From contig CM077149.1 in assembly GCA_039583875.1 (NCBI GenBank), forward strand, positions 27,293,194 to 27,357,193: DNA of 64,000 nt, in the 5' to 3' direction. Position numbers and translations under genes: made by a program. Shown here piece by piece: positions 24,330 to 64,000 of the stretch. Numbering within the stretch: position 1 is the stretch's first letter; each line of letters opens with the position of its first letter. The DNA is from Platanthera guangdongensis (Eukaryota > Streptophyta > Magnoliopsida > Asparagales > Orchidaceae). Under the pieces are notes generated by a model that saw only the letters and a list, made by a program, of their open reading frames with translations, was not told the origin of the DNA and searched no databases.

Positions 24330-25340
24330 GTGACCAGGAGTGGTGTAAGGCCGTCAGAATTTTCGCTTTCTATGGAATACAGTGCTCCCAGCAACGTGCT
24401 CGAGACCCCTCCTTCGTTTGAAACCATAAGAAGGATAGTTGAAGTGGTGTTCGCTGTGACTAATGCACAACATGGAAGGAATGTGCAACCCTTTTCCCCT
24501 GATGTGGCTTCAACGCTGGGTGGCGTGATGGAGCAAATGATATTTAGTCGACCATCGGGTCAGCAGTTGAACATGCGTCTAGTTCAGGGAGCGCACTCAG
24601 TTGACGAATATTTGCAGGAGTTTCTTATGATAAGCCGCTACCCATGCTTTGAGTTGGAGAACGAGCATTCTATAGTTGATACATTTTATAATGGTCTGCG
24701 TGGCGAGTTGCGAATTATACTGCTAGGACCAAAATTATTGGGATTCCGAGCCTTGGTGGAGTCAGCTAGATTTTTGGAAGTAGATTTGGGGAATACTCAC
24801 CAGATGCTAGTGAGCAGGGTATCGAACTCCGCAAGTCCTATAAGAGCTGCTTTCCGCAGAATGCTGAAAAAGGGGGCTAGAACATCGACTATCAAAGCTA
24901 CTTACACTTGTCATACTTATGGTAAGAAAGGGCACTTTGCCCGAGATTGTCGGGATGGTGCTAAGAAGACAAAGAAAGCTATGTCAGGAGCAGTTGAGGA
25001 CTCTAGGGCAAACGAAATGGTGTTCATGGTGCCGACCACCTCAAAGTCTGCGTACCATAGGTGGAATAAGAAGGCGAGGACTTCAGGTCCAGCCCCTTAG
25101 TCTGGTGCGTCTGGGGCAACTACGGTCCGAACCCCAGGAGCATGGTATAACTGTGGAAAGCCGGGACACTTTGCCCGAGACTGTTGGAGCGAACGTCCAA
25201 AGTCCGAGAGTAAGCCTGGGGCAACGTATGAGGAGAAGGGCAAGGCGGTGGAGTCAACCGCATCCCGCTATGCTCCAGCGCAGCCTAGGGTGTATAATTT
25301 TGGCTATAGGAGGCCATAAAGCAAGCTGACGTGCTGACAG
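24330..25340 (+). pseudogene. gag: Gypsy-B Gag
   Basis: Gag of a chromovirus-type gypsy element. The reading frame begins with GTG directly at a splice-acceptor-like AG (24328-24329); the first in-frame ATG is only at 24375, so the true N-terminus is probably supplied by an upstream exon. The capsid region contains VDEYLQEFLMISRYP and FYNGLRGELR. A first zinc knuckle, CHTYGKKGHFARDC (24911-24952), has its second Cys changed to Tyr. A TAG at 25098-25100 interrupts the frame; after it a second knuckle, WYNCGKPGHFARDC, lacks its first Cys (Trp). A further small frameshift near 25318 precedes ADVLTG, which ends at the intron donor (25340). Confidence 0.75.
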
Positions 25341-25419
25341 GTATGAGTTAAATTTAAAGCAGTTTAGCTTTAAATAATTGTTGCCCTTGCGCGTGTTAGC
25401 TTAGGATTGTTTGTGTAAG
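25341..25419 (+). other. Candidate intron between gag and protease, Gypsy-B (79 nt)
   Basis: Donor ACAG|GTATGAG and acceptor TGTAAG|GC bound an AT-rich 79-nt stretch. Removing it joins the VLTG codons to the protease upstream of LFDSGSSHSF in phase. Without splicing the frame stops at TAA three codons into the intron (GT ATG AGT TAA). Gypsy-C has an intron at the equivalent position. Confidence 0.65.
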
Positions 25420-26314
25420 GCTTTGTTTCGCTTTTCGATTATCCGGCGAGAGCACTGTTCGATTCAGGATCTTCACACTCCTTTTTGTACAAAGGATTTG
25501 TATCACGTATCGGAGTACCTTCTTTGATGGCAAAGGACAAATTGGATGTGTTGTTGCCTAATGGGTGCTCAATACATGCAGATGGAGTTTGTTGTGTTTA
25601 GATATTGATTGGGAGTCAAGATTTTGACTTGTAAGCATCGCTACTACCAATAGTAGAGTTCGGTGTGATCTTTGGTATGGACTGGCTCTCGAAGCAGCGG
25701 ACATACATTGATTGCAACCGCAAGAAGGTCAAATAGAGAACTGATCGTGAGATGACTTTTTCGGGGTTGAAGGGATCAAGCAAGACTTTGATGTCTGCTC
25801 TCTAGGTGATTAAGGCATTTTGTGCTGGTGCAGAGCTGTTTCTCACTTTGGTGAAAGGTTCGAAGCCCAAGGCTGTTTTGGACAGCATCTCAGTGGTATC
25901 CGAGTACCCTGACCTGTTCCCTGACGATCTCCTTGGAGCCCCACCTCAGCGGGAGATTGACTTCACTATTGAGTTGGTGTTAGGTGCTAAACCTGTGCCA
26001 CGCTCTCTATATCGGTTAGCGCCTAAGTAGATGGTGGAACTGAAGGTTAAACTTGAAGAGATGTTGGAGTAGGGTTATGTGCATCCAAGTTCGTCGCCTT
26101 GGAGCGCATCGGTCCTTTTTGGTAAGAAGAACGATGGAAGTGTGCGACTCTGTATCTATTATCGAGAGCTGAATAAGTTAACGGGGAAGAAAGAGTACCT
26201 GATCCCAAGGATTGATGATCTATCCGATCAGTTAGTCGGGTCATCGGTGTACTCGAAATTGGATCTTAAGTCTGGATATTATCAGTTGAGGATAAGTGAA
26301 AGTGATATCCCCAT
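25420..26314 (+). pseudogene. pol: Gypsy-B protease and RT, 5' part
   Basis: The protease active site is LFDSGSSHSF (about 25447-25476), a D-S-G aspartic protease motif. RT begins with the DLFPDDLLGAPPQREIDFTIEL linker (25806 on), then [32 protein letters not shown], where the catalytic D of LCIDYRELN is Tyr, and [17 protein letters not shown]. In-frame TAGs occur at 26028-26030 and 26070-26072, and other stops lie in the linker. The frame is interrupted at 26314 by Copia-3 inside the [13 protein letters not shown] motif; the coding sequence resumes at 38391 in phase. Confidence 0.8.
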
Positions 26315-32355: not shown

Positions 32356-32361
32356 TAGGTT

Positions 32362-33420
32362 TTAGAACCTTCTGCACAAATTTGAATCAGTAGAACCAAA
32401 TATAATATCATCTACATAGATTTGTACTAGTAGGGTATGGGACTTATGGGTTCTAATAAAAAGAGTTTGGTCTACTCTACCCCTTATAAACTCATTTATC
32501 AGAAGAAAGTATGCTAGGGTATCATAGCATGCTCTAGGAGCTTGCTTTAGACCATATAATGCTTTATGCAATTTAAAAATATAATCAGGATTAGTTGAAG
32601 AGATAAAATCTGGGGGTTGTCTGACATAGACTTTTTCTTTGATATCTCCATTGAGAAAAGCACTCTTTACATCCATCTGGTATACTTTGAAATCTTTGTG
32701 TGCTGCATATGCTAAGAAGATTCTTATGGCCTCTAACCTTGCAACTGGTGCAAAGATCTGCTCATAATCTATCCCTTCTTCTTGAGAGTACCCTTGAGCA
32801 ACTAGCCTTACCTTGTTCCTTACAATGACTCCTTGATCATCCAATTTGTTTCTGAACACCCACTTTGTTCCAACAATGGAGTGATCCTTTGGCCTTGGTA
32901 CTAGTTCCCAAACTTTGTTCCTTTCAAATTGATGCAACTCTTCTTGCATTGTAATGATCCAGTGTAGATCTTGCTCTGAATCTTGAATGGATTGAGGTTC
33001 AATTTGAGAAAGGAAGCAAGTGTGCATCAGATTTTGGTTGACCTGATTTCTGGTTTGCACACCGGCTGAGATGTCTCCAATCACTTGGGAGATTGGATGG
33101 TCTCTTGATGTTACTAAATCAACAGGAGCTGTTGATTGTTCACCAACCTGTATTGTTGTTTCCTCTTGTGGTACAACAACAGGCTCTTCAAGAAGTTTCT
33201 CTTCAGGGTGATGAATGTCTTCTTCATCTTCACTGCTTTCCTCTTTTTGAATGATGTGTAACCTATCCAAGTCTTCTGCAAGAGAGTGTACCTGCAAAGG
33301 TTCTATGGTAGAAGTATTCTTCTCCTTGAAAGACATGTTAGATTCATCAAAAGATATATGAACAGATTGTTCAATTTTGAGAGTTGATTTATTATATACC
33401 CTATAAGCCTTACTGACCAT
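32362..33420 (-). pseudogene. pol: Copia-3 integrase C-terminus and RT
   Basis: The frame covers [26 protein letters not shown] (integrase C-terminal), an acidic linker, then [80 protein letters not shown] and the catalytic [10 protein letters not shown] (about 32370-32405). Motifs are intact, and this is the best-preserved RT of the three copia elements; the frame then breaks at 32362, near the end of the RT palm. Confidence 0.85.
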
Positions 33421-34631
33421 GGAGTATCCCAGAAAAACTCCTTCATCAGCTTTAGCTTGAAATTTTACTAAGTATTTCTTGTCATTATTATGAATGTAAC
33501 AAATACAACCAAAAATTTTAAATTAATCTACTTTAGGTTTCTTCCCTTTGAGTAATTCATAGGGAGTCTTGCCCTTCAGTTTATGTATTAAACTTCTATT
33601 CAACACATAGTTGGAGGTGTTCACTGCCTCTGCCCAAAAAGATAGAGGAAGGTGAGCATCTGACAACAATGTAGTGGCAGATTCAATAAGGGTTCTATTT
33701 TTCCTTTCAGTTACCCCATTTTGTTGAGGAGTTCTAGGAGTTGAGAAAGTGTGCCTGATCCCTTCACTCTGACAGAACTCTTACATAAGAAGAGAATCAA
33801 ACTCTATCCCATGATCACTTCTGATCTGGGCAATGTGAGTATTGAACTCACTCTGTATGCATTTGAGAAACTCTATCAAACACTTAAAATTATCAGAATT
33901 CTTACTCAGAAGAACACCCATGTGAATCTAGAGAAGTCATCTACAACCACTAAAGTATAAGATTTCCCTCCTAAGCTTTGTACTGTAATGGGTCCAAAAA
34001 GATTCATGTGTAACAGATACAAAATCCTAGGTGAATCACTCTTATTAAGTGACTTGAAACTATTTTTGGTTTGCTTGCCTAATTGACAAGCCCTACAGAG
34101 TCCTTCCTTCTCGTAGGGGCCAGAAGATAGTCCTCTAACAAGGTTGTCCTTGGATAGCCTAGCAATGGTTCTAAGGTTTATATGCCCTAGTCTCTTATGC
34201 CATAAAACATTAGGTCTACATATGGAGTTAAACAGGCAAATATCTACTTCAGTTGAAATAAAGTCTACTAAATAGATGTTACCTTTCCTTTTACCTGTCA
34301 ACACAGTTGTGTTGTCCTCTGATTTGATCTTGCATAAGGATTTGCTCGAAGTCACTTGGTAGCCTTCATCACATAGTTGACTGATACTGATCAAGTTATG
34401 TTTCAGTCCTTCTACATAGGCTACTTTCTTGAATGTGACTGTGCCAATCTGGACAGCACCATATCCTTTTATTAGTCCAAAGTTTGAATCACCAAATATG
34501 ACTTTGGGTCCAAGTATGGCTTTAAAGGATGTGAAATTGTCCTTGTTTCCTGTCATGTGCTTTGAGCACCCACTATCCAGATACCATTGCTTGTTTGATG
34601 TTGGATAGGTCTTCACCTGCACATAAAGCAA
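33421..34631 (-). pseudogene. pol: Copia-3 protease and integrase
   Basis: The frame 34631-33906 holds WYLDSGCSKHMTG (about 34545-34585), an intact D-S-G protease site, then integrase zinc region HKRLGHINLRTIARL...CRACQ and the core start (LLHMNLFGP, where the usual first catalytic D is N). Beyond 33906 the core is broken: [19 protein letters not shown] and ERKNRTLIE can be read in shifted frames, with stops near 33781 and 33525. In the +1 frame relative to gag. Confidence 0.8.
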
Positions 34632-34632
34632 T

Positions 34633-35532
34633 TTACTTGTTTTTGACCCAGTTTACCTTGGGCCTAGGTTGATAACCTTTAATTTCAGAAAAAAATGACA
34701 TCCCTGGTTGACTCTTATAACCTTCAGGATGATATCTCCTTGGAGGTATTATCCATTCAGTATAAGAGTTAAATCTTTGGGATGAAGGACCCCTAGGTTT
34801 GGAATTTGATTTACCATTGAAAAAGTTTTCAAAACTCTGATCTCTGCTCGACGATCGTTGAGCTAAGTTCGATGATCTTGGGTCAGATTGTCGAGCTCCG
34901 TTCGAAGATCGACTGTGGCAAAGTTCAGGGTTTAGAGATCGTCGACCTGAGTTCGAAGATTTTGCCTGAGATCGTTGATCTCTGTTCGGCGATCGTCTAG
35001 CTCCGTTCGATGATTTCTGTTGAACTCTTGTTTTCTTAGGTAAGTCAGAGTTTTTCCTAGCTACCTCTACAACTCCCTTCCCATTATCAGAGATAAACTT
35101 GATTGGGCTTGCTAATACTATAGGTTGGCTAGATGAAGCACCCAAGCCCAGTGTACTATTAAATCTTGAGTTCACTATGCATGTGATGTCCATTAGTTTG
35201 ATACTTCTCCCATTGAGGGATTCTTCAAACTTTTTGGCCTCTAATAGTTCACTTTTTAGTGAAGTTATCTTCTCCCTACAGCATTCCAACTCCTCATTGA
35301 GATTGAGGTTTTCTGATTTTAAGGTACTGTGTTCAGATAATTGATTTCTGAGAGAAATGATTTCCTTCTCAGATTTTAATAAGTCTAAAAATAGTGCTTT
35401 AAACTCATACTTGAAGTCCTCAGAGTTGAAATCAAATGAGTCTATTACCTGGTCCTCTTCAAGTTGAGTCTCTGAGTCTGACTCTGACTCTTCTACATCA
35501 GAATTGTGTTGTGAGGCATTGATAGCCATCAT
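34633..35532 (-). pseudogene. gag: Copia-3 Gag C-terminal region
   Basis: An acidic stretch (SDVEESESDSETQLEED), a likely coiled coil (LKSEKEIISLRNQLSEHSTL...) and an Arg/Ser/Asn-rich repeat region (RSSNGARRSPNRDQRS) are coded here. The repeat region (34843-35015) is coded by the same CGATCGTTGAGCTCCGTTCGA-type motif array found in the LTR, read in frame. The frame ends with a TAA near 34633, two bases after the pol frame opens. It plausibly fuses to the zinc-knuckle part upstream through a frameshift between 35707 and 35532. Confidence 0.7.
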
Positions 35533-35706
35533 GCAGAATTCCTTTTCTTCAGCATCATCTTCATCATCACTTGAGCTGGAAGAAGCCTCAGATTCTTCTT
35601 CTGTCTCACTCCAAGTTTCAACAACAAATCCCTTCCTTATGTGTTTGTTCTTGCTGGAGGAGGGTTTGACATTGCTATTCTTCTTGAAGTCCTTGTCTTT
35701 TCTTCT

Positions 35707-36135
35707 TTATTTCTTATCCTTTCTGTCCTTGTTTTTAGATTCTGGACAGTCATGTACAATGTGGCCTGGTTTTCTGCAACCAAAACAGATAATCTCTTTG
35801 TTATTTGATTTATCATACCTTGGCTTGTCATGCTCTTTGTATGATCTTTTCCTGAAGTCCTTTCTGGCCATCTTGTAAAATCTTTTGGCCAGTAGACTAA
35901 GCAACTCATCATTGCCTGTGACTTTGTCTTCAGGCTGATCTTCAGTGGCTTTGAAAGCTATTGATTTCTCCTTTCTTATAGCTGGTGAGGCATCCTTCTG
36001 CTCTTCCTCTCTATTCTTGATGAGCAGCTCATAAGACTTGAGCTTGCCCAAGAGAGCTTCAGTGGTGATCTCATTTAGACTTCTAGCATCCTTGATTGGC
36101 CAGATCCTTGAGTCCCAAGTGCTTGGGAAGCACAT
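35707..36135 (-). pseudogene. gag: Copia-3 Gag zinc-knuckle region
   Basis: WDSRIWPIKDARSLNEITTEALLGKLKSYEL is the Gag region that follows the UBN2 domain, and CFGCRKPGHIVHDC (about 35757-35798) is an intact CCHC knuckle for RNA binding. The frame stops at 35707 (KDKK, stop). A stop just upstream (36150-36155) separates it from the N-terminal part. Confidence 0.8.
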
Positions 36136-36153
36136 TAAGATTTTATCATTTAG

Positions 36154-36687
36154 CTAAGTCAATGAGATCTCTTTGTCCAAAGTTTTTAGCTCATTGACTA
36201 TGAGACTGAGTCTATTATACATGTCTGCTTCTGACTCAGCTTCTCCTTTCTTGAAATTCATATATTGGGTTATGAGGTGAGATCTTCTGTCTTTTCTCTC
36301 ATCAGCAGATCCTGAGACTATTTCAGATAGCTTGTCCCAGATGTCCTTTGCTGAGTTGCATTCAGCTACCTTTTGGAATATCTCATCAGACATAGTCTGG
36401 GCTAGAATGTTCATAGCTTTTGCATCTGCAACTTTCCATTTCTTGATCTCTACATCTATTCCTGATGGAGGTGGAACAGCACTTGTACTTATGTTATCTG
36501 GAGGTCTTGGACACACTGTCAAAACAGAATTGAAAATGTCCTCATAAATAGAGTTCATGTACAGTCTAATCCTTGCCTTCCAAAGTGAAAACTTAGACAG
36601 ATTGCACACTGGAGGTATGGTGCTAGCATAATCTTTGTTTTGGGTCATGTTTTGTGAAGAAATAAGCCTAATAACAAACTTAAACAA
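36154..36687 (-). pseudogene. gag: Copia-3 Gag N-terminal region
   Basis: UBN2-type Gag: NLSKFSLWKARIRLYMNSIYEDIF, AKAMNILAQTMSDEIFQKVAECNSAKDIWDKLSEI, and YMNFKKGEAESEADMYNRLSLIVNEL. A likely start is the internal Met at MTQNKDYASTIPP (about 36648), as the preceding residues are leader-like. The frame ends with a stop at 36154 close to the next gag segment. Sequence is clearly different from Copia-1 and Copia-2 Gag, so Copia-3 is a distinct family. Confidence 0.8.
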
Positions 36688-36793
36688 TCAGATCTAACTA
36701 GAAGGATCTTTGGGTTCAGGTGTTAGCCTGTGCAACCACTAAGGTATGGTATTTGTAACCAACCCTGGAAGATGTGGTATGTTTAACCAACCT

Positions 36794-36808
36794 GGCTCTG
36801 ATAACAAT
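36794..36808 (-). other. Primer binding site, Copia-3
   Basis: On the minus strand ATTGTTATCAGAGCC directly follows the 5' LTR. It matches TGGTATCAGAGC with one G to T change. Confidence 0.75.
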
Positions 36809-38385
36809 TGAAAGTGCAATTTAGATCTGATATACTCTAGAGGGGGGGTGAATAGAGTATGGTGCTTGCTAAACAACTTTTTACAACTGTTGTCGTATTC
36901 CTAGGTGAACAGGGAAGCAAATAACATAAAGTAAATATAAACACAGAACAATCACAGATCAATCACAAAGCACAGCCAGAAAACAAAAGAAAAACAAGCA
37001 ACCAGAAAACACAAGGAGCTATAGTGGTTCCCCAACCAATCTATGTACATCCACTCTTCTACCACCCTAGGTAGGAATCCACTGCATGATGAGTTGATCA
37101 GGTGTCCTGGACACCAATGAGCTTTTGATAAGGTGCTCAAAAACCAAACCAGATTTTTTTATCAGGTGTCTTGCCACCACTGAGTTTTGATAAGGTCTCA
37201 GAAACCAATCACAAACTTTTGAAGGGAGTTTGAAAACCCTTTACAGCAGAGAGAGAGAGGGATGAGATGATCTTCTCTATCAACAATCAGAGAGAAGATA
37301 ATGGATGTTGTCAAAGCTCCCCCTGAGATCTTGAGTTTTTCAGGAAGTGAAGCTTTGCAGTAGGGTGATAGGACTTCAGATGATTTGATCTCCAGCAAAA
37401 GATGATTTCAGCAACATTTGATATGTGAGGTGTCTGGAGTCTTGAATGATGATGGTCTTTGAACATTTGAATCAAGAGAGATCTAAAACTTTCAGTAAGT
37501 TGATCTCCTTTTGTGATGGTGTTCTTGAATGAATTTTTGAGACTGAGAATGTCTGCAACTCTCTTTCTTTCTCTTGTGTAATCATTGTTGTAAGAGTTGT
37601 AATTCTTGTTGTTGTAGAGAATTGTTATTGCATAAGTTATTGTTGTTGTTATTAGAGTTGTTGTTGCAGAGAATAATAATATATCTTTTATTCCTTTGAT
37701 CTGAATATAAATGATCCTCTGTCCAAGATAGCCATTAGTCTGTCATAAATGATTTTCATAACTGTATTTTGTCTTCTGGAGGAAAGTCCAATAAAACATT
37801 CCTTAAAAATTCCTTGAAACTTGCTCCAGATTAATTAAAAATGGCTACAAGATCTCTGACATAAATGCTGAGAATAATTCCACAACTGTCTGAATTTGAA
37901 TCTTTGAAAAACGTCTAACTCTTCAGAAAAATGTAGAACTGAGCTCCACTATCGTTGAACTGAGCTCAGAGACTGTACTTAGACAAAAACAGAGATCGTT
38001 GATCTGAGCTCAACTATCGTCGAACTGAGCTCAGAGATAGAGAATCAAACTGGATTAAAGAGCGTCGATCTGAGCTCGAAGATCGTCGAATGGAGTTCGA
38101 CGACTCGTTGAAGTTGAGCTCAGAGATCGTCGAATGGAGTTCAACGATTCGTCGAAGTGAGCTCAGCGATCGTCGAATGGAGTTCGACGATTCGTCGTCC
38201 TGAGCTCGACGAAATGACTTGGTCTCCAAAATTGAAAAACCTGGTCTTAAGGGCAGCTTCCAAACCTAAATACTAACCCTTAGACTCAATTCTAATTGTC
38301 CTTTAGATCTATACAATGAGGTCAAAACTTGTTTCCTAAGAGACATAGTGATCCTTTCCCAAATCAGTAATATGGTGTTCCAATA
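36809..38385 (-). repeat. Copia-3 5' LTR
   Basis: 1577 bp. On its strand it starts TATTGGAACACC (TG changed to TA) and ends GCACTTTCA. It has the motif array at 37930-38215 and a perfect C-loop hairpin, ATACTCTA (36832-36839) with TAGAGTAT (36853-36860). Frames at 36952-38229 within it are not genes. Confidence 0.9.
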
Positions 38386-40866: not shown

Positions 40867-40999
40867 TGTAACGTCCCGAATCGCTCTAGGCCCCTAGTGT
40901 GTGTGTTTTGAGTCAGGAGGGTTGACTTGAGTCCTGAGAGTGCAGGGAATTGGACTGCACTTGTGGAGAAATGGAGAATCAGTGTAAAAAGGAGGTGAC

Positions 41000-41451
41000 A
41001 CGGGTAGGGACACGGCCGTGTGCCTACCCGTGTGCGTCGAATTGAGCTCGACGAGCCGTGTCGAGATCGTCGAGCTGTGTCGACACCAAGTGACACGGAT
41101 AGGGACACGGCTGTGTGCCTACCCGTGTGCGTCGAGTTGAGCTCGACGACCCGTGTCGAGATCGTCGAGCTGTGTCGACACCAAGTGACACGGGTGGAGA
41201 CACGGTCGTGTCCCTACCCGTGTGCGTCGAGTTGAGCTCGACGAGAAGTGTCAAGAGGCAACCCGAGAAGTACACGGCCAAGGACACGGCCATGCACACG
41301 GCCGTGTCATGTGGACACGGGTCGGGACACGGGCGTGTCCCAACCCGTGTCAAGTATTGAACCGACATGGAAACTGTCGTTGCCGCTCCGCCAGGCAGGA
41401 CACGGGTAAGGACACGGCCGTGTCCCTACCCGTGTCACATTTTATATATAT
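41000..41451 (+). promoter_or_regulatory. Gypsy-C LTR promoter region with long palindromes
   Basis: Tandem 95-bp units combine GTCGAGTTGAGCTCGACGA, GAGATCGTCGAGCTGTGTCGACAC and ACACGG/CCGTGT palindromes. The last unit, about 41400-41437, is a near-perfect 36-bp palindrome centred on GACACGGCCGTGTC and ends about 5 bp before the TATA box TATATATAT (41443-41451). The same arrangement recurs at 48490-48545 (minus) and 55936-55988 (plus). Confidence 0.75.
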
Positions 41452-41640: not shown

Positions 41641-42683
41641 GTGAGTTTCCTACCCTCTCCCTTGGTGCTAGATCTATAGTTATGCCTTAGGAGAGACATC
41701 GACTCAAGAGAGTCTTGATGGAGAGGAGAAGATCTCTAGGTTAGGCCATGTTAGAACTTGTGTTCTAGACTTTAGATCTCTTCAACCCTTCCCCTTTTCT
41801 TCAATATGACAATGGGTGGATGGTCTCGTGAGGAGTTTATGGCCTTTGAGGTTGAATAAGGGAGGAGAACATTTCTGGAAAATTTAGGAAGGATCGCTTG
41901 AGGAAGAAGACGGACCGATGCCGTCCATTTTTCTTTAAGAAGCGTGCAGAATCTGTATTCTGCGCGCAGCGGACTTCGTGGCCATTTTTATGTATGCTAT
42001 GTCCAGATCTGGGCTTTCGGCTTAACACGAAAGTTGAAGCCCTTGAAAATATCTTTCCAACGAATGGTTGCACGACTTCTGGCGAAGTCTGTAGCCACGG
42101 GAAAGTCTAAACGAAAATGGTGTTTAATAAACCTCGTATGCAGAAACTGTGTTCTGTACGCAGCGGACTTCAAGTCCGATTTCAAATAGGATAATGTCAA
42201 ATCTGGGTTGAGCTCTGAATATGAAAGATGTAGTCTATGGAAATACCTTTCCATCGAGTGGTTACACGACTTCACCGGATTCCTGTAGCCTCGGGAATCT
42301 CCGGTCGAAGTTGCTCTCCAGACTATTCCTGCACTTAAAAATCTGGGTTTATAATATTTGGATTTGGATTCGGTGAAACTAATATTACAGGTAACCTTGA
42401 GGCTTGGATAAACTCTTATGAATAATTAATTCAGTTGCATAAATGATGAAGATTATTAATCGGATTTCATGTGATAGAATTGTAAGATAGTATACTTGAA
42501 TGATTTGACTGGTTAGAAGTTAGTAGATTTTTATACATGTGCATCTTGATATATTGTGTTGAAATTACCTGATATGACATATAGAAGGATAACTCATGGC
42601 CATGTGATTGTTGAATAGTGGATTGAATTTGGTAGTCCAATACTTAGAGCGTCGCCTTCCTATGGGTAGCATTGTGTAAGTTT

Positions 42684-43693
42684 ATATGGTTCAAACACCT
42701 TGTTCATCAAACTCATGAAGGCCGAAGGGGCATTTGTGAGCCCAAACGGCATTACTGTGAACTCATACAAACCATATCTCGAACTGAATGCTGTTTTCTG
42801 AATGTCCCCCTCATGTATCCTCAACTGATAGTACCCGGAGCGCAAATCCAATTTAGAAAACCAATGTGCTCCCACTAGTTGATCGAACAACTCATCGATC
42901 CGCGGTAGTGGATAAGTGTTCCGCACCGTCAACCGATTGAGTTCCCGATAATCTATGCACAATCGCAGTGTTCCATCCTTCTTCTTCACGAACAGCACAG
43001 GGGCTCCCCATGGTGATGAACTGGGGCGAACGAACCCTGAATCCACCAGTTCATGCAATTGAACTCTAAACTCCGCGAGTTCTTTCGGAGCCATTCTGTA
43101 CGGAGCCTTGGATACAGGCTTGGCACCTGGTACTAGATTGATCTGGAAGTCAACCTCTCTATGCGGAGGAAATCCTGGTAGCTTCTCAGGAAATACCTCA
43201 GGAAAATCCCGCACTACCCGTACATCCTTTAATTCCAACGCTGCTTCCTTCAACTCGAACCAGATCATGAAGACCTCATCCCCCTTCATATGAGCCTTTA
43301 CAGCCTGAATATAAGATAATATCATACGTGGCGCGAAGCCAATACCTTGGAAGATGACGTCAGAGTCTCCATGCCTCAAATAGATCCGTTTCTCCGCGCA
43401 GTCGATCCTCGCGAAGTGCCAGTCCAGCCATGTCATGCCCAAAATGATGTCAAACTCCGGCATTCTCAGAACCGTGGCCGGCGTATCAAAGGCCTTCCCA
43501 TCAATAAATAACTCCAACTCGCACTTGGCGGTTGCGATCATCTCTGAGCCGTCCGGAAGGCGTACACGTCGGGCTATGCCAGTGAAGTACTGTACATCCC
43601 CCATGTCTTTTATGAAATCCTCGGACACAAAGGAGTGTGAGGCACCGGTATCGAACAGCGCATAGGCTGTCTTCCCGCCAATAATCACGGTGC
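42684..43693 (-). pseudogene. pol: Gypsy-C copy 2: protease and RT, truncated
   Basis: Protease begins at 43693 just after an intron acceptor; the active site is [16 protein letters not shown] (about 43614-43661). Then [70 protein letters not shown] and [21 protein letters not shown]. All RT motifs up to there are intact (LCIDYRELN). The frame is cut at the junction with the inverted LTR at 42683/42684, before the xxDD catalytic box. This is the best-preserved protease of the Gypsy-C copies. Confidence 0.85.
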
Positions 43694-43788
43694 CTAAGTA
43701 CCAACAACCAAAACTTATTGCTAGTGGCTAGTAAGTTCTAATAAATTCAAGCTAGATCATGCAAATATGTAAATTAATTAAATCATAC
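43694..43788 (-). other. Candidate intron between gag and protease, Gypsy-C copy 2 (95 nt)
   Basis: Donor GCAG|GTATGATTTAA, AT-rich body, acceptor GGTACTTAG|GC. Splicing turns DVIAG + TVIIGG into a continuous Gag-protease frame; unspliced RNA stops at TAA, three codons into the intron. CTTACTAGCC, 40-45 nt before the acceptor, could serve as branch point. Same intron at 52742-52836 and 59738-59831. Confidence 0.75.
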
Positions 43789-44914
43789 CTGCAATCACAT
43801 CTTGTGGGTTCCTTTCCTGCGCCATGTCAAGCGCGTACACCTGATCCCGGACCGGTCTGGGGTTTCCTCTTGGCGGTCCTCGTCCTCGACCGCGCATATA
43901 TCCCCGCCCTCGTGGAGCTGCTGGAGGGAGAGCAGGAGGAAGAGCAGGAGGGAGGGCAGGAGGGGCGTTCCCATATAGCTGCGGGCAAAAACGCCGGATG
44001 TGGCCCGGCTGGTTGCATTCGAAGCACACCAGACCACGACGCCCTTCAGGTTGTTGAAATCGCTGATGCTGTGGGGGTGGAGGCAACGCAGGCGGCTGCG
44101 GAACTGGATGCTCCACCCTATAGTTTCGGTGGACACGCCCGCCACCTCTTTGATAACCTCTTCCTCCTCTGAAGTCCCGTCTCCTTCTATTACTTGGGCC
44201 GGCTTCCATCACGTCCTCCGCAGGCCTCTTACTACAACCCAGGTGGTCCGCCTCCAATCTTTTCGCCATATCAATGATCTCTGCCAAGCTACCATCCGCT
44301 ATAAACAAAAGGGACTGCCTTAGGGGATCTCGCAGCCCTTTATAGAAGCGCTTGGCATAACCTCTGTCATCCAACTCATAAGAGTCTGCGAACCTTGCGA
44401 GATGCTGGAATTCCCGCTGGTATTCTGTAACCGACTTTGATCCCTGCTTTAGTAGAAGGAACCTCTGCTCAAGCTCATCTCGGGCCGATGTAGGGATAAA
44501 GTGCTCCAAGAAAACACCCGAGAATTCACTCCAACTTATCTCTGTGTAGATCCGGCCTTGGAAGGTAGAGCCCATGAGGGACTTCCAGCACCTCTTCGCA
44601 TGTAAGTCCAAGACGGACACTGCCAATGTCACTGCCATGTTGGCCGGGCAACGGATACCAGCCAGCAACTCTTCTATCGTGTCTAGTCATTCCTCTGTAC
44701 GTACGGCTGACTCAGTCCCAAGGTAGACGGGAGGGGAGAGAGCCCGGAAGGTGCTCAGCCAGTTGGAGCTCGGGGCTTGTTGTTGCACCGGAGCCTGCTG
44801 TGCCTTAAAAGCATCAAGAATGGCGGTAAGCGTTTGCCCCAACTCAGACTGTTGGAACTGAGTGGGTATGGGAGGGGTAGGAGTACCCCCCATCGGCTCA
44901 ACATGCAGTGGAAC
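43789..44914 (-). pseudogene. gag: Gypsy-C copy 2: Gag exon 2
   Basis: The exon starts at 44914, right after a CGTGTATGTGTAG acceptor; VPLHVEPMGGTPTPPIP is read in frame, with the first ATG at 44893. Capsid region: FSGVFLEHFIPTSARDELEQRFLLLKQG, VTEYQREFQHLARFA and RFYKGLRDPLRQSL. The zinc knuckle CFECNQPGHIRRFC (about 43985-44030) is intact, followed by Pro/Ala repeats (ALPPALPPALPP) and an RGRG-rich tail. One in-frame TGA (44687-44689, Trp in the other copies) is the only stop. Confidence 0.82.
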
Positions 44915-48489: not shown

Positions 48490-49136
48490 CTATATATATA
48501 AAATGTGACACGGGTAGGGACACGGCCGTGTCCTTACCCGTGTCCTGCCTGGCGAAGCGGCAACGACAGTTTCCAAGTCGGTTCAATACTTGACACGGGT
48601 TGGGACACGCCCGTGTCCCGACCCGTGTCCACATGACACGGCCGTGTGCCTGGCCGTGTCCTTGGCCGTGTACTTCTCGGGTTGCATCTCGACACTTCTC
48701 GTCGAGCTCAACTCGACACCACACGGGTAGGGACACGGCCGTGTCACTACCCGTGTCACTTAGTGTCGACACAGCTCGACGATCTCGACACGGGTCGTCG
48801 AGCTCAACTCGACGCACACGGGTAGGCACACGGCCGTGTCCCTACCCGTGTCCCTTGGTGTCGACACAGCTCGACGATCTCGACACGGGTCGTCGAGCTC
48901 AACTCGACGCACACGGGTAGGCACACGGCCGTGTCCCTACCCGTGTCCCTTGGTGTCGACACAGCTCGACGGTCTCGACACGGGTCGTCGAGCTCAACTC
49001 GACGCACACGGGTAGGCACACGGCCGTGTCCCTACCCGTGTCCCTTGGTGTCGACACAGCTCGACGATCTCGACACGGGTCGTCGAGCTCAACTCGACGC
49101 ACACGGGTAGGCACACGGCCGTGTCCCTACCCGTGT
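48490..49136. repeat. 95-bp tandem palindrome array, Gypsy-C minus LTR
   Basis: About four and a half 95-bp units (48722-49136) plus two more distant long palindromes at 48504-48545 and 48592-48632. Each unit holds GTGTCGACAC, GTCGAGCTCAACTCGAC and ACACGG/CCGTGT cores. Units differ by few bases. The TATA box (48491-48500, minus) follows on the transcribed side. Confidence 0.85.
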
Positions 49137-49218
49137 CCCTCTTTACACTGATTCTCCACTTCCCCACAAGTGCAGTCCAATTCCCTGCACTCTCAGGACT
49201 CAAGTCAGCCCTCCTGAC

Positions 49219-50799
49219 TCAAAACACACACACTAGGGGCCTAGAGCGATTCGGGACGTTACAAATCCTATAAACAAAATAAAAGATTTCGTCCCCGAAA
49301 TCAGGCTTAGGCTGTGGGGAGGAAAGCATGACAGAAAATTTAACACTTGCTTTTAAATAAAATTTACCTTGAGCAAACAACTCCGGGTAGCGTTGCTGCA
49401 TTAAATCCAATGGCTCCCATGTGTACTCCTCCTTCCCATGGTTCATCCATTGCACCTTCACTAAGGGGACACTTTTGCGGCGTAATGTTCTTGTCTCGCT
49501 GTCAACAATCCGCACCGGCTCTAGTCGCACAGACCTATCTGATGCCACTGCACCATCAGTAGTGGGAATATACTGGTCGGGCCGCAACAGTGCTTTTCGA
49601 AGCGACGACACATGGAACACGTCATGGAGATTTTCTAGTTCTGGTGGTAACTCCAACCGATAGGCCAACGGGCCAATTCTTTCCAATATAGTATAAGGCC
49701 CAACATACCTTGGGCTGAGCTTTTTCACTCCCCGCACCCGTGACACTCCATGCATCGGCCGAATCTTAAGGAACACTTTTTCGCCCACCTGGAACTCCAC
49801 CATCCGGTGCTTTTTGTTGTAATATTTCGCCTGTCGACTTTGAGCCTCCAACATGCGATCCCGTATCAATCTGACCGCCGCATCAGTATCATCTATGTAT
49901 TCGTTTCCCAATGCCTTCGGATCTTCATCTTGCACCCAAGACAAGGGAGTCCTGCACCTTCTTCCGTAAAGGGCTTCATGGGGCGCCATGCCGATGCTCG
50001 CCTGATGGCTATTATTATAGGAGAATTCCACCAGGGGCAAGAGCCTTTCCCATGGCTCTCCTCTGTGCAGCACGCATAACCTCAATAAATCTTCCAGTGT
50101 CCTGATGGTCCTTTCAGACTGCCCGTCAGTCTGTGGATGAAATGCGGTACTAAAGGTTAGGCGTGAGCCCAAATACGCCTGTACTGCCTTCCACTCATTG
50201 GATGTAAACCGACCATCCCTATCCGAAACAATTGTCTTGGGCACGCCATGATACCGTACAAATTGCTCCACAAAAAGGCGTACCAAAACACCCACGTGTG
50301 CTTCCTTCTTCATTGGAATGAACCGGGCCACCTTTGTTAGTCGATCCACAATAACCCACACCGAATCATTCCCGGAGCGGGAACGAGGTAACCCATGAAC
50401 CAAGTCCATGGAGATACCCTCGAACTTCCATTCGGGGATGGGCAGCGACTGCAACAAACCACCGGGACTACTGCATTCAGCCTTCACTCTTTGGCAAGCT
50501 TCGCAATGTGTAACATAGTAGCGAACATCCTTCTTCATTCCCGGCCAACACATGGTCTTCCGCAATCCGGCGTACATCTTAGCAATACCAGGGTGCACTG
50601 AATATTGAGAGGAATGTGCCTCTCTCAAGATATCCTCCCGAATTTTGCCGCCCTTGGGAATATAAAGTCGGCCACGAAAATAAACGAGGCCGTCTTTGAG
50701 TGTGTACTCATCGGTTGGTCCTATCTTCAATTGCCTTGATTGCCGGGGCCAAGGACGCATCCATTCCTTGCTCCACCCGAATCCGGTCTCGGATATCAC
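49219..50799 (-). CDS. pol: Gypsy-C copy 1: integrase with chromodomain-type tail
   Basis: An uninterrupted frame of 526 codons, the best Gypsy-C integrase. [24 protein letters not shown]...CEACQ is the zinc region; the core shows [21 protein letters not shown] and [19 protein letters not shown] (D, D, E). [16 protein letters not shown] is the GPY/F module and LRRKSVPLVKVQWMNHGKEEYTWEP the chromodomain-like tail, which in this family directs integration to chromatin. The last 15 residues run into the LTR (stop at 49219-49221, LTR starts 49263). The first Met is not the natural start; integrase is part of the Pol polyprotein. Confidence 0.85.
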   Translation of the reverse strand: MISETGFGWSKEWMRPWPRQSRQLKIGPTDEYTLKDGLVYFRGRLYIPKGGKIREDILREAHSSQYSVHPGIAKMYAGLRKTMCWPGMKKDVRYYVTHCEACQRVKAECSSPGGLLQSLPIPEWKFEGISMDLVHGLPRSRSGNDSVWVIVDRLTKVARFIPMKKEAHVGVLVRLFVEQFVRYHGVPKTIVSDRDGRFTSNEWKAVQAYLGSRLTFSTAFHPQTDGQSERTIRTLEDLLRLCVLHRGEPWERLLPLVEFSYNNSHQASIGMAPHEALYGRRCRTPLSWVQDEDPKALGNEYIDDTDAAVRLIRDRMLEAQSRQAKYYNKKHRMVEFQVGEKVFLKIRPMHGVSRVRGVKKLSPRYVGPYTILERIGPLAYRLELPPELENLHDVFHVSSLRKALLRPDQYIPTTDGAVASDRSVRLEPVRIVDSETRTLRRKSVPLVKVQWMNHGKEEYTWEPLDLMQQRYPELFAQGKFYLKASVKFSVMLSSPQPKPDFGDEIFYFVYRICNVPNRSRPLVCVF

Positions 50800-52741
50800 A
50801 AACTATGCTCATGTTGGCCAAATACTCCGCATACTCTGCCGAAGGATCCTTGAATACTAGAGTAATTTCCATCTCCTCGATCATCCGAGCCAAATCCATA
50901 CTCATCAGCCGAGACTCTGGGCTAGAGCCTGGCACTTTTCTACTCAAGGCATCGGCTACCGAGTTCGCTTTCCGGGTGGTAGTTCATGGTGAACTCGTAG
51001 TCGCATAAAAATTCCAACCACCGCCGTTGTCTCAGGTTCAACTCCTTCTGAGTGTGAACATACTTCAAGTTTTGTGATCGGAAAAGATCTCGCAGTGCAC
51101 GCCATATAAATAATGCCTCCAGACTTTCAAGCGAACACACACTGCTCCCACTCCAAATCATGAACCGGGTAATTGATTTCATGTTTCTTTAACTGCTTGA
51201 AGCATAAGCGATCACATGCCCGTGCTGCATCAGCACCGCTCCCATCCCTTGATATGATGCGTCCGTGTAAACTTGGAATCCTTCCTTCCCAGACGGAAGT
51301 GCAAGGATGGGGGCGGAGGTAAGCCTATCTTTCAATTCTTGAAATGCCTCTTCACATTGAGGTGTCCACTCAAATGGCACACCCTTCTTCGTCAAGGAGG
51401 TAAGAGGAAGGGCAATCTTGGAAAAACCTTTCACGAACTTGCGGTAGTAGCCAGCAAGTCCAAGAAAGCTTCGTACATCAGCCGCCGACTTCAAGGGCGA
51501 CCACTCCTTCACGGCCCGCACCTTTGCTGGATCCACTGCTAACCCTGCTCCACTGATCACATGCCCCAAGAGGCAACCTCCTTAAGCCAGAATTCACACT
51601 TGCTAAACTTGGCATACAAGGCATGCTCCTTCAATTTCTTCAAAACCAAGGTCAGGTGCTCGACATGCTCCTCCTCCGTCTTTGAGTAGACCAAGATGTC
51701 GTCGATGAAAACAATGACGAAGATGTCCAAATACGGTTCAAACACCTTGTTCATCAAACTCATGAAGGCCGAAGGGGCATTTGTGAGCCCAAACGGCATT
51801 ACTGTGAACTCATACAAAACCATATCTCGAACTGAATGCTGTTTTCTGAATGTCCCCCTCATGTATCCTCAACTGATAGTACCCGGAGCGCAAATCCAAT
51901 TTAGAAAACCAATGTGCTCCCACTAGTTGATCGAACAACTCATCGATCCGCGGTAGTGGATAAGTGTTCCGCACCGTCAACCGATTGAGTTCCCGATAAT
52001 CTATGCACAATCGCAGTGTTCCATCCTTCTTCTTCACGAACAGCACAGGGGCTCCCCATGGTGATGAACTGGGGCGAACGAACCCTGAATCCACCAGTTC
52101 TTGCAATTGAACTCTAAACTCCGCGAGTTCTTTCGGAGCCATTCTGTACGGAGCCTTGGATACAGGCTTGGCACCTGGTACTAGATTGATCTGGAAGTCA
52201 ACCTCTCTATGCGGAGGTAATCCTGGTAGCTTCTCAGGAAATACCTCAGGAAAATCCCGCACTACCCGTACATCCTTTAATTCCAACGCTGCTTCCTTCA
52301 ACTCGAACCAGATCATGAAGACCTCATCCCCCTTCATATGAGCCTTTACAGCCTGAATAGAAGATAATATCATACGTGGCGCGAAGCCAATACCTTGGAA
52401 GATGACGTCAGAGTCTCCATGCCTCAAATAGATCCGTTTTCTCCGCGCAGTCGATCCTCGCGAAGTGCCAGTCCAGCCATGCCATGCCCAAAATGATGTC
52501 AAACTCCGCATTCTCAGAACCGTGGCCGGCGTATCAAAGGCCTTCCCATCAATAAATAACTCCAACTCGCACTTGGCGGTTGCGATCATCTCTGAGCCGT
52601 CCGGAAGGCGTACACGTCGGGCTATGCTAGTGAAGTACTGTACATCCCCCATGTCTTTTATGAAATCCTCGGACACAAAGGAGTGTGAGGCACCGGTATC
52701 GAACAGCGCATAGGCTGTCTTCCCGCCAATAATCACGGTGC
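50800..52741 (-). pseudogene. pol: Gypsy-C copy 1: protease, RT and RNase H
   Basis: Protease starts at 52741 after the intron acceptor, with [17 protein letters not shown] one-base deletion and a one-base insertion near 52440-52510 shift the frame for about 25 codons. [24 protein letters not shown]; a further frameshift near 51828; then [15 protein letters not shown] (about 51685-51730) and [17 protein letters not shown]. RNase [28 protein letters not shown] (51225-51310), [17 protein letters not shown]. Lesions are single-base indels; domain order is complete. Confidence 0.82.
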
Positions 52742-52836
52742 CTAAGTACCAACAACCAAAACTTATTGCTAGTGGCTAGTAAGTTCTAATCAATTCAAGC
52801 TAGATCATGCAAATATGTAAATTAATTAAATCATAC
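52742..52836 (-). other. Candidate intron between gag and protease, Gypsy-C copy 1 (95 nt)
   Basis: Same donor (GCAG|GTATGATTTAA), same acceptor (GGTACTTAG|GC) and same length as in copy 2, with one substitution in the body near the CTTGAATT stretch. Phase is preserved. Confidence 0.75.
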
Positions 52837-54141: not shown

Positions 54142-55619
54142 ATCTGACACAAAGGAGTGTGAGGCACCGGTATCGAACAGCGCATAGGCTGTCTTCCCGC
54201 CAATAATCACGGTGCCAAGTACCAACAACCAACACTTATTGCTAGTGGCTAGTAAGTTCTAATCAATTCAGCTAGATCATGCAAATATGTAAATTAATTA
54301 AATCATACCTACAATCACATCTTGTGGGTTCCTTTCCTGCGCCATGTCAAGCGCGTACACCTGATCCCGGACCGGTCCGGGGTTTCCTCTTGGCGGTCCT
54401 CGTCCTCGACCGCGCATATATCCCCGCCCTCGTGGAGCTGCTGGAGGGAGAGCAGGAGGGAGAGCAGGAGGGAGGCAGGAGGGGCGTTCCCATATAGCTG
54501 CGGGCAAAACGCCGGATGTGGCCCGGCTGGTTGCATTCGAAGCACACCAGACCACGACGCCCTTCAGGTTTGTTGAAATCGCTGATGCTGTGGGGGTGGA
54601 GGCAACGCAGGCGGCTGCGGAACTGGATGCTCCACCCTATAGTTTCGGTGGACACGCCCGCCACCTCTTTGATAACCTCTTCCTCCTTGAAGTCCCGTCT
54701 CCTTCTATTACTTGGGCCGGCTTCCATTACGTCCTCTGCAGGCCTCTTACTACAACCCAGGTGGTCCGCCTCCAATCTTTTTCGCCATATCAATGATCTC
54801 TGCCAAGCTACCATCCGCTATAAACAAAAGGGACTGCCTTAGGGGATCTCGCAGCCCTTTATAGAAGCGCTTGGCATAACCTCTGTCATCCAACTCATAA
54901 GAGTCTGCGAACCTTGCGAGATGCTGGAATTTCCCGCTGGTATTCTGTAACCGACTTTGATCCCTGCTTTAGTAGAAGAACCTCTGCTCAAGCTCATCTC
55001 GGGCCGATGTAGGGATAAAGTGCTCCAAGAAAACACCCGAGAATTCACTCCAACTTATCTCTGTGTAGAGATCCGGCCTTGGAAGGTAGAGCCCATGAGG
55101 GACTTCCACCACCTCTTCGCATGTAAGTCCAAGACGGACACTGCCAATGTCACTGCCATGTTGGCCGGGCAAACGGATACCAGCCAGCAACTCTTCTATC
55201 GTGTCTAGCCATTCCTCTGTACGTACGGCTGACTCCGTCCCAAGGTAGACGGGAGGGGAGAGAGCCCGGAAGGTGCTCAGCCAGTTGGAGCTCGGGGCTT
55301 GTTGTTGCACCGGAGCCTGCTGTGCCTTAAAAGCATCAAGAATGGCGGTAAGCGTTTGCCCCAACTCAGACTGTTGGAATGAGTGGGTATGGGAGGGGTA
55401 GGAGTACCCCCCCATCGGCTCAACATGTAGTGGAACCTACACATACACGACAAATTTGTGGTCAGGTTGGCTAAACTTAAGGTCAAAGTTGGACAAACTT
55501 AATGTGAATTACTATGGGCACACCACTGCTATCCGCTAAGTCAGTTTGTCCCCAAACTGACTAACCAAACGGGGGTGGCACCATTGTTGAATGACTTCTT
55601 AGTTGAGGATTGTGGCAAC
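54142..55619 (-). pseudogene. gag: Gypsy-C copy 3: leader, Gag and protease fragment
   Basis: On the minus strand: leader with hairpin (55619-55437), Gag exon 2 (about 55436-54309), intron (about 54308-54217), then the first 70 bases of protease ([16 protein letters not shown]), cut at 54142. The intron acceptor has lost a base (CTTGGCACC instead of CTTAGGCACC). Several one-base insertions and deletions break Gag. At 55620 the sequence switches to plus-strand LTR. Confidence 0.75.
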
Positions 55620-59737: not shown

Positions 59738-59831
59738 GTATGATTTAATTAATTTACATATTTGCATGATCTAGCTTGAATTTATTAGAACTTACTAGCC
59801 ACTAGCAATAAGTTTGGTTGTTGGTACTTAG
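59738..59831 (+). other. Candidate intron between gag and protease, copy 4 (94 nt)
   Basis: Donor GCAG|GTATGATTTAA and acceptor GGTACTTAG|GC as in the minus copies; one T is missing in the AAGTTTGG stretch. Splicing restores the Gag-protease phase. Confidence 0.75.
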
Positions 59832-62800
59832 GCACCGTGATTATTGGCGGGAAGACAGCCTATGCGCTGTTCGATACCGGTGCCTCACACTCCTTTGTGT
59901 CCGAGGATTTCATAAAAGACATGGGGGATGTACAGTACTTCACTGGCATAGCCCGACGTGTACGCCTTCCGGACGGCTCAGAGATGATCGCAACCGCCAA
60001 GTGCGAGTTGGAGTTATTTATTGATGGGAAGGCCTTTGATACGCCGGCCACGGTTCTTGAGAATGCCGGAGTTTGACATCATTTTGGGCATGGCATGGCT
60101 GGACTGGCACTTCGCGAGGATCGACTGCGCGGAGAAACGGATCTATTTGAGGCATGGAGACTCTGACGTCATCTTCCAAGGTATTGGCTTCGCGCCACGT
60201 ATGATATTATCTTCTATTCAGGCTGTAAAGGCTCATATGAAGGGGGATGAGGTCTTCATGATCTGGTTCGAGTTGAAGGAAGCAGCGTTGGAATTAAAGG
60301 ATGTACGGGTAGTGCGGGATTTTCCTGAGGTATTTCCTGAGAAGCTACCAGGATTACCTCCGCATAGAGAGGTTGACTTACAGATCAATCTAATACCAGG
60401 TGCCAAGCCTGTATCCAAGGCTCCGTACAGAATGGCTCCGAAAGAACTCGCGGAGTTTAGAGTTCAATTGCAAGAACTGGTGGATTCAGGGTTCGTTCGC
60501 CCCAGTTCATCACCATGGGAGCCCCTGTGCTGTTCGTGAAGAAGAAGGATGGAACACTGCGATTGTGCATAGATTATCGGGAACTCAATCGGTTGACGGT
60601 GCGGAACACTTATCCACTACCGCGGATCGATGAGTTGTTCGATCAACTAGTTGGGAGCACATTGGTTTTCTAAATTGGATTTGCGCTCCGGGTACTATCA
60701 GTTGAGGATACATGAGGGGGACATTCAGAAAACAGCATTCAGTTCGAGATAATGGTTTGTATGAGTTCACAGTAATGCCGTTTGGGCTCACAAATGCCCC
60801 TTCGGCCTTCATGAGTTTGATGAACAAGGTGTTTGAACCGTATTTGGACATCTTCGTCATTGTTTTCATCATCGACGACCATCTTGGTCTAACTCAAAGA
60901 CGGAGGAGGAGCATGTCGAGCACCCTGACCTTGGTTTTGAAGAAATTGAAGGAGCATGCCTGTATGCCAAGTTTAGCAAGTGTGAATTCTGGCTTAAGGA
61001 GGTTGCCTTCTTGCTTGGGCATGTGATCAGTGGAGCAGGGTTAGCAGTGGATCCAGCAAAGGTGCGGGCCGTGAAGGAGTGGTCGCCATTGAAGTCGGCG
61101 GCTGATGTACGAAGCTTTCTTGGACTTGCTGGCTACTACCCGCAAGTTCGTGAAAGGTTTTTCCAAGATTTCCCTTCCTCTTACCTCCTTGACGAAGAAG
61201 GGTGTGCCATTTGATGTGGACACCTCAATGTGAAGAGGCATTTCAAAGAATTGAAAGATAGGCTTACCTCCGCCACCCATCCTTGCACTTCCGTCTGGGA
61301 AGGAAGGATTCCAAGTTTACACGGACGCATCATATCAAGGGATAGGAGCGGTGCTGATGCAGCACGGGCATGTGATCGCTTATGCTTCAAGGCAGTTAAA
61401 GAAACATGAAATCAATTACCCGGTTCATGATTTGGAGTTGGGGAGCAGTGGTGTTCGCTTTGAAAGTCTGGAGGCATTATTTATATGGCGTGCACTGCGA
61501 GATCTTTTCCGATCACAAAAACTTGAAGTATGTTCACACTCAGAAGGAGTTGAACCTGAGACAACGGCGGTGGTTGGAATTTTTTATTGCGACTACGAGT
61601 TCACACATGAACTACCACCCCCGGGAAAGCGAACTCGGTAGCCGATGCCTTGAGTAGAAAAGTGCCAGGCTCTAGCCCAGAGTCTCGGCTGATGAGTATG
61701 GAGTTGGCTCGGATGATCGAGGAGATGGAAATTACTCTAGTATTCAAGATCCTTCGGCAGAGTATGCGGAGTATTTTGGCAACATGAGCATAGTTTGTGA
61801 TATCCGAGACCGGATTCGGGTGGAGCAAGGAATGGATGCGTCCTTGGCCCCGGCAATCAAGGCAATTGAAGATAGGGACCACCGATGAGTACACACTCAA
61901 AGACGGCCTCGTTTATTTTCGTGGCCGACTTTATATTCCCAGGGCGGCAAAATTCGGGAGGATATCTTGAGAGAGGCACATTCCTCTCAATATTCAGTGC
62001 ACCCTGGTATTGCTAAGATGTACGCCGGATTGCGGAAGACCATGTGTTGGCCGGGAATGAAAGAAGGATGTTCGCTACTATGTTACACATTGCGAAGCTT
62101 GCCAAAGAGTGAAGGCTGAATGCAGGAGTCCCGGTGGTTTGTTGCAGTCGCTGCCCATCCCCGAATGGAAGTTCGAGGATATCTCCATGGACTTTGTTCA
62201 TGGGTTACCTCGTTCCCCGCTCCGGAATGATTCGGTGTGGGTTATTGTGGATCGACTAACAAAGGTGGCCCCGGTTCATTCCAATGAAGAAGGAAGCACA
62301 CGTGGGTGTTTTGGTACGGCCTTTTTGTGGAGTAATTTGTACGGTATCATGGCGTGCCCAAGACAATTGTTTCGGATAGGGATGGTCGGTTTACATCCAA
62401 TGAGTGGAAGGCGTACAGGCGTATTTGGGTCTCACGCCTAACCTTTAGTACCGCATTTCATCCACAGACTGACGACGGCAGTCTGAAAGGACCATCAGGA
62501 CACTGAAGATTTATTGAGGTTATGCGTGCTGAACAGAGGAGAGCCATGGGAAAGGCTCTTGCCCCTGGTGGAATTCTCCTATAATAAGCCATCAGGCGAG
62601 CTTCGGCATGGCGCCCCATGAAGCCCTTTACGGAAGAAGGTGCAGACTCCCTTGTCTTGGGTGCAAGATGAAGATCCGAAGGCATTGGGAAACGAATACA
62701 TAGATGATACTGATGCGCGGTCAGATTGATACGGGATCGCATGTTGGAGGCTCAAAGTCGACAGGCGAAATATTACAACAAAAAGCACCGGATGGTGGAG

Positions 62801-63334: not shown

Positions 63335-64000
63335 TGTAACGTCCCGAATCGCTCTAGGCCCCTATGGTGTGTGTGTTTTCAGTCAGGAGGGCTGACTTGA
63401 GTCCTGAGAGTGCAGGGAATTGGACTGCACTTGTGGGGAAGTGGAGAATCAGTGTAAAGAGGGACACGGGTAGGGACACGGCCGTGTGCCTACCCGTGTG
63501 CGTCGAGTTGAGCTCGACGACCCGTGTCGAGATCGTCGAGCTGTGTCGACACCAAGGGACAACGGGTAGGGACACGGCCGTGTGCCTCCCGTGTGCGTCG
63601 AGTTGAGCTCGACGACCCGTGTCGAGACCGTCGAGCTGTGTCGACACCAAGGGACACGGGTAGGGACAACGGCCGTGTGCCTACCCGTGTGCGTCGAGTT
63701 GAGCTCGACGACCCGTGTCGAGATCGTCGAGCTGTGTCGACACCAAGGGACACGGGTAGGGACAACGGTCGTGTGCCTACCCGTGTGCGTCAAGTTGAGC
63801 TCGACGACCCGTGTCGAGATCGTCGAGCTGTGTCGACACTAAGTGACACGGGTTATGACACGGCCGTGTCCCTACCCGTGTGTGTCGAGTTGAGCTCGAC
63901 GAGAAGTGTCGAGATGCAACCCGAGAAGTACAGGCCAAGGACACGCCAGGCACACGGCCGTGTCATGTGGACACGGGTCGGGACACTGGGCGTGTCCCAA
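63335..64000 (+). repeat. Gypsy-C copy 4: 3' LTR, start only
   Basis: It starts TGTAACGTCCCGAATCGC and runs to the window end. It has about four 95-bp palindrome units (63465-63850) with one-base indels (GACAACGG for GACACGG). The pol region before it ends with GATTTCGGGGACGAAATC, and no classic polypurine tract is visible. Confidence 0.88.

Follow-up and report, generated by a model that had tools for sequence, protein, structure and literature searches.

The window analysed here is a stretch of 64,000 nucleotides from the orchid Platanthera guangdongensis (GenBank assembly GCA_039583875.1, contig CM077149.1, positions 27,293,194 to 27,357,193 of the forward strand), and it carries copies of two families of gypsy-type long terminal repeat (LTR) retrotransposons, Gypsy-B and Gypsy-C, in which a short GT-AG stretch separates the coding regions of Gag and the protease (PR). 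An initial annotation of the window had placed such stretches at an identical codon in three Gypsy-C copies and one Gypsy-B copy; all four were found as described, and a damaged fourth Gypsy-C copy was added to them (Table 1). The stretch is almost certainly a short spliceosomal intron at the Gag-protease boundary, belonging to chromovirus-like gypsy elements. The best explanation as a whole, to which we give a probability of about 0.7, is a spliced Gag-PR intron in elements that would use unspliced RNA for Gag and spliced RNA for Gag-Pol.

The intron of Gypsy-C copy 1 is preceded by Gag and a zinc knuckle and followed by the aspartic protease and the reverse transcriptase (RT). The first exon-2 residue corresponds to about position 25 of the 136-position Pfam profile RVP_2, and the profile therefore continues upstream across the junction. 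Matches to Gag, RVP_2, RVT_1 and Integrase_H2C2 in Gypsy-C lie above the profile cut-offs, and those to rve (29.1 bits, cut-off 32.6) and to the chromodomain PF00385 (20.9 bits, cut-off 25.1) lie below. The closest solved structures for the PR-RT piece of Gypsy-C copy 1 are reverse transcriptases, including that of Ty3 (7q5b). Both families split the codon in the same phase, G|GC, and in both the unspliced frame past the junction reads G-M-(I/S)-stop.

Table 1. Gag-PR introns in the window and the coding pieces of the same elements; positions are counted from the first nucleotide of the window.
Feature	Position	Strand	Remarks
Gypsy-C copy 3, Gag-PR intron, 94 nt	59738..59831	+	GT-AG; TAA is the fourth codon
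Gypsy-C copy 1, intron, 95 nt	43694..43788	-	Donor at 43788, acceptor at 43694
Gypsy-C copy 2, intron, 95 nt	52742..52836	-	Donor at 52836, acceptor at 52742
Gypsy-C copy 4, damaged	54217..54308	-	Acceptor AG gone, TAG ahead of donor; additional to the earlier list
Gypsy-B, intron, 79 nt	25341..25419	+	Codon and donor core as in Gypsy-C
Gypsy-C copy 1, Gag exon	43778..44686	-	Retrotrans_gag and zinc knuckle; open up to the stop just within the intron
Gypsy-C copy 1, PR-RT exon	42660..43727	-	RVP_2 and RVT_1; frame first opens within the intron
Gypsy-C copy 2, PR-RT exon	51810..52775	-	
Gypsy-C copy 3, beginning of PR exon	59832..60061	+	tblastn pieces; match shifts frame near 60061
Integrase end, assigned to Gypsy-C copy 2 by position and strand only	49219..50802	-	H2C2; weak rve and chromodomain matches
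Gypsy-B, Gag piece	24330..25100	+	PF03732 at 20.5 bits, under the cut-off of 24.1
Gypsy-B, PR exon	25422..25721	+	Degraded in the window copy

The intron is abundant in the 4.25-Gb genome from which the window comes. A search for the donor string CAGGTATGAKTTAA gives 6206 occurrences and one for the reversed control gives 36, so that the string is present far above chance. From the first 100 places listed, 68 were sampled (48 consecutive and 20 hand-picked, 17 of the latter with the GTATGATTTAA form), and exon 2 was recognisable in 64 of these without an AG being required for recognition. The acceptor AG stands at the predicted site in 60 of the 64 copies, with AA in three and AT in one, and GTATG is present at the donor in 97 of 100 listed Gypsy-C copies (100 of the 1629 found in a fixed-flank search). 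The intron measures 75-97 nt in the 60 AG copies and 73 nt in the AT copy, and division by three leaves a remainder of 0 in 16, 1 in 5 and 2 in 39 of the AG copies. The split codon reads GGC in 53, GGA in 9 and GAC in 2 copies, that is, glycine in 62 of the 64; because it is so constant while lengths fall into all three classes, the exons join in one and the same frame whatever the length of the intron. Mean G+C falls from 0.55 in exon 1 to 0.30 in the intron and is 0.47 in exon 2, and a branch-point-like yUnAy motif lies within the intron in 61 of the 64 copies, a count that carries no chance control and on which no branch point is claimed. All three frames are closed inside the intron in 43 of the 64 copies; the mean for shuffled introns is 41.8, so stops occur at the level of shuffling, as in non-coding sequence. 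The copies L050 and L051 are of a third type, which is more diverged and has its intron, of 92 nt, at the identical codon.

The strongest evidence that the intron is spliced comes from copies that lack it. Genome-wide searches with fixed exon ends and a free gap, in which Gypsy-C gaps of 5-35 nt define empty sites and gaps of 100-130 nt intron-bearing ones, returned 1629 intron-bearing and 24 empty Gypsy-C places, and all 24 of the latter show the exact GT-AG spliced junction. The corresponding numbers for Gypsy-B are 1500 and 51, with 48 exact junctions and three that are one base shorter. The intron is thus retained in 98.5% (Gypsy-C) and 96.7% (Gypsy-B) of exact-flank copies. No places at all were found genome-wide at a control gap of 36-66 nt with Gypsy-C flanks, where in-between deletions would fall, and reversed patterns gave no matches in any of the fixed-flank searches (empty, intron-bearing or control gap). 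Gag passes directly into PR in the 20 intronless Gypsy-C loci that were read. Paired LTRs were present in each of three tested copies out of the 24 empty ones, 99.9, 99.2 and 99.5% alike over ~3.2 kb, so these three look like recent LTR-paired insertions and not like processed copies of the kind made by long interspersed nuclear elements. Exact GT-AG empty sites, scattered among intron-bearing Gypsy-C copies and in the three tested cases flanked by paired LTRs, argue that the intron is spliced, as the initial annotation had supposed, and that the spliced RNA is at times reverse-transcribed. The two families that share the intron are 52% identical over PR-RT. By a wide margin, the empty sites are most simply explained by splicing and subsequent reverse transcription, a conclusion drawn from DNA copies. 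Some empty copies lie close together, in groups of three on C8, four on C3 and two on C16, and there are therefore fewer events than empty copies. Intronless copies follow one another at a spacing of 6.8-7.5 kb at C8:109491599-109506654, C3:26067849-26088289 and C16:97278099-97284944, perhaps as LTR-internal tandem arrays.

The number of such events in Gypsy-C was addressed with a tree of the exon-2 flank comprising 20 of the 24 empty copies and 26 intron-bearing copies, three of them from the window. The presence or absence of the intron needs 10 changes on this tree, at least five of which are forced by well-supported branches, and a single clade of empty copies is rejected (p-AU 0.00026). 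When two odd rows (L095 and L053) are dropped, nine changes remain on the exon-2 flank (p-AU 0.0008); the exon-1 flank also needs nine and again rejects a single clade, on a tree that three long branches make less safe. Across the exon-2 flank, window copies have 99-100% identity with an empty copy. A single intronless ancestor of the empty Gypsy-C copies is a poor account, one clade being rejected by the tree tests; as judged from these trees, the intron was removed on several independent occasions in Gypsy-C.

The flanks and the intron differ in the way they change. At the first, second and third codon positions of exon 1, the pairwise difference is 0.081, 0.055 and 0.340 among 37 Gypsy-B copies and 0.086, 0.009 and 0.108 among 22 Gypsy-C copies. 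In the same alignments, 35 of 103 intron columns contain gaps in Gypsy-B, against 0 of 61 columns in exon 1 and 2 of 90 in exon 2; the corresponding counts in Gypsy-C are 2 of 97, 0 of 61 and 0 of 89. By these measures the exons evolve as coding sequence, and the intron tolerates insertions and deletions of whatever length. This constraint bears on the idea that dead copies acquired the stretch as an insertion, which became fixed by chance and was then amplified. The idea would suit the several broken copies in the window but is scarcely credible beside 3129 exact-flank intron-bearing copies and an adjoining exon that is constrained by codon position. Nor is the stretch unique to dead copies, an outcome that the initial annotation had raised as fatal to its proposal: in 10 of the 64 sampled copies, neither flanking frame meets a stop before the end of the sequence that was fetched.

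The second element of the proposal is a stop codon built into the donor. The CAGGTATGAKTTAA search required TTAA and was therefore unable to test conservation of the stop, which was read instead from the fixed-flank gap searches. Of the 100 copies listed for each family (from 1629 in Gypsy-C and 1500 in Gypsy-B), 90 in Gypsy-C and 99 in Gypsy-B have an in-frame stop as their fourth codon, compared with a stop frequency of ~0.068 for a shuffled intron codon. The stop is kept despite a change of letter, TAA to TAG, in two Gypsy-C and two Gypsy-B copies among those listed, and a third, divergent Gypsy-B copy retains TAA amid altered surroundings. The copies are related, which spoils a p-value, and this conservation is therefore suggestive only.

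Several observations weigh against parts of the reading set out above. AGG stands at both ends of the intron, and a microhomology deletion would thus leave a junction identical to that made by splicing; moreover, the control covers only Gypsy-C gaps of 36-66 nt, one of two planned ranges. It is nonetheless very unlikely that the empty sites are DNA deletions between these AGG repeats, since the control range holds not one place, the removal is exact in Gypsy-B copies whose exon 2 varies between copies, and Gypsy-C lost the intron several times independently. A further difficulty is that the exon-2 frame is open right through the intron in 20 of the 64 sampled copies, so that for these 20 the reading frame by itself is no argument against recoding. 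Recoding at the gag-pol boundary occurs in LTR elements, and the stretch could accordingly be an unspliced spacer crossed by frameshift, readthrough or reinitiation. Such crossing is highly improbable, however, given intron lengths in all three classes of divisibility by three, an exon-2 frame that is closed within the intron in the other 44 copies and preceded by an in-frame ATG in only 9 of the 64, and precise empty sites, which strongly contradict it. Substitution divergence is little higher in the intron than in the exons, at 0.157 in exon 1, 0.216 in the intron and 0.204 in exon 2 for Gypsy-B, and 0.068, 0.090 and 0.049, respectively, for Gypsy-C.

The remaining contrary points concern the need for the intron and for its stop. 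Among the 20 intronless Gypsy-C loci that were read, 10 have a Gag frame of 371 or more open codons and stay open as far as the stretch extends, and empty copies on different chromosomes have variants in common. The empty copies are also clustered on the exon-2 tree, where the 10 changes compare with a mean of ~15 for shuffled labels and only 2-3 of 500 shuffles are as low. Clustering and common variants together suggest a spread of some of the intronless copies themselves, whether unaided or helped, and the intron may be dispensable for spreading. As to the stop, five of the 100 listed Gypsy-C copies form a sublineage that starts GTATGTTG and lacks the fourth-codon stop; four of the five are free of any other stop over the first 67 nt, and the fifth has one further along. 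A Gag-only product of unspliced RNA is therefore not assured in this sublineage, and the built-in stop that the initial annotation ascribed to both families holds as a common feature of each but fails in this branch of Gypsy-C. The sublineage and the intronless copies with long open frames would both fit a real intron that is spliced by default and has no part in Gag:Pol balance, being kept for RNA export or stability or because the template is packaged before splicing. We regard this as possible but rather doubtful, for the stop is kept in the great majority of listed copies of both families, TAA-to-TAG changes included, at a rate far from that of shuffled introns, although their relatedness limits this argument as well.

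Returning to a spliced intron that divides Gag from Gag-Pol, the mechanism would run as follows. Unspliced RNA would be the main template for new copies, because so large a share of copies retains the intron, and it would yield Gag with three additional residues, because most copies have a stop immediately after the third codon beyond the junction. Spliced RNA would yield Gag-Pol, and partial splicing would determine how much Gag is made relative to Pol and keep template RNA apart from the messenger for Pol. The division of labour between unspliced RNA for Gag and spliced RNA for Gag-Pol is probable, and whether control of the ratio is the reason for keeping the intron is a question on which we see the odds as even. 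We would likewise give an even chance to the broader proposal that a whole chromovirus-like lineage uses a retained intron with a fourth-codon stop to produce Gag and Gag-Pol, with unspliced RNA acting as Gag messenger and preferred template and with empty sites counting how often spliced RNA is copied. The empty shares, 24 of 1653 (Gypsy-C) and 51 of 1551 (Gypsy-B) exact-flank copies, would then be a genome record of spliced RNA becoming DNA, so that it can be tested whether unspliced RNA is selected as template, and splicing is a candidate regulated Gag/Pol step that is directly measurable in RNA.

The intron appears to be older than the separation of the two families, which have codon, phase and donor core in common despite their 52% identity. 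A scan of genome records labelled bacterial gave nine outside relatives. The junction is comparable in four of them (L070-L073), and all four read through it continuously, in line with the supposition of the initial annotation that the usual protein is unbroken at this site; their frames across the junction span 1504, 1505, 1522 and 258 codons, and since L070 and L071 are near-identical, they amount to three distinct loci. The remaining five do not allow the comparison: the sequence begins too late, the motif is missing or divergence is too great. These four gypsy-like contigs have the Gag-PR junction of Gypsy-B and Gypsy-C and 40-47% identity in the best PR-RT segment, but are intronless. The contigs L069-L073 sit in records assigned to bacteria such as Geminicoccus and Solirubrobacter, with two near-identical ones in unrelated genera, and are probably eukaryote contamination. 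No relatives were found in viral contigs by tblastn. In a PR-RT tree with no outside root, built from four intronless rows and from the 27 intron rows among the 64 whose frames are long enough, one branch with support of 99/95 separates the two kinds. The simplest reading is one gain of the intron before the split of Gypsy-B and Gypsy-C, and loss in the outside relatives would also fit, because the tree has no outside root.

Two further features of the window were noted. Tandem repeats of ~95 nt, rich in ACACGGG, lie near the Gypsy-C 3' end at 40963-41274, 48720-49194 and 63429-63932; we think that the match of their period to the length of the intron is a coincidence. The region 26348-38158 is a copia-like, repeat-flanked stretch that seems to be nested in the Gypsy-B copy, as gypsy RT picks up again at 38371.

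How plant gypsy elements achieve an excess of Gag is, in our view, largely open. Gag and Pol are often encoded in one open reading frame although far more Gag is needed, as noted in passages of a 2025 review that also describe plant LTR elements as generally without introns and name Ogre and EVADE in that connection (PMC12786077). According to passages of a survey from 2019 that covered 8453 plant Ty3/gypsy elements, most groups have one open reading frame; in some there are two, and GAG or GAG-PROT lies in the first. Only Ogre and Bianca are named there as having a region between the frames (PMC6317226). We found no intron at the gag-PR junction of a chromovirus in the open literature, as far as its accessible text goes; one could still be described in subscription papers or in annotations of single species. 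The nearest precedent is Ogre, of the Tat lineage of Ty3/gypsy elements in pea and Medicago, whose intron has a parallel role in the survey's account (PMC6317226). The Ogre intron lies between PR and RT, which share one open exon-2 frame in the elements described here; the intron of Gypsy-B and Gypsy-C lies one domain earlier, between Gag and PR, measures 75-97 nt and belongs to elements with a weak-scoring chromodomain match. Bianca, a Ty1/copia element, likewise has two frames with a short region between them (mean 172 bp), but it belongs to another superfamily, and the survey's passage on it does not describe splicing (PMC6317226). In the passages on EVADE/ATCOPIA93 and on the shGAG RNA of BARE1, splicing likewise separates Gag from Gag-Pol, with the roles reversed: the spliced copia RNA encodes Gag only and the unspliced RNA Gag-Pol (PMC12786077, PMC8892269). 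In Gypsy-B and Gypsy-C it is the unspliced frame that stops just past Gag, and removal of the intron, as seen in 20 intronless Gypsy-C loci, carries Gag on into PR.
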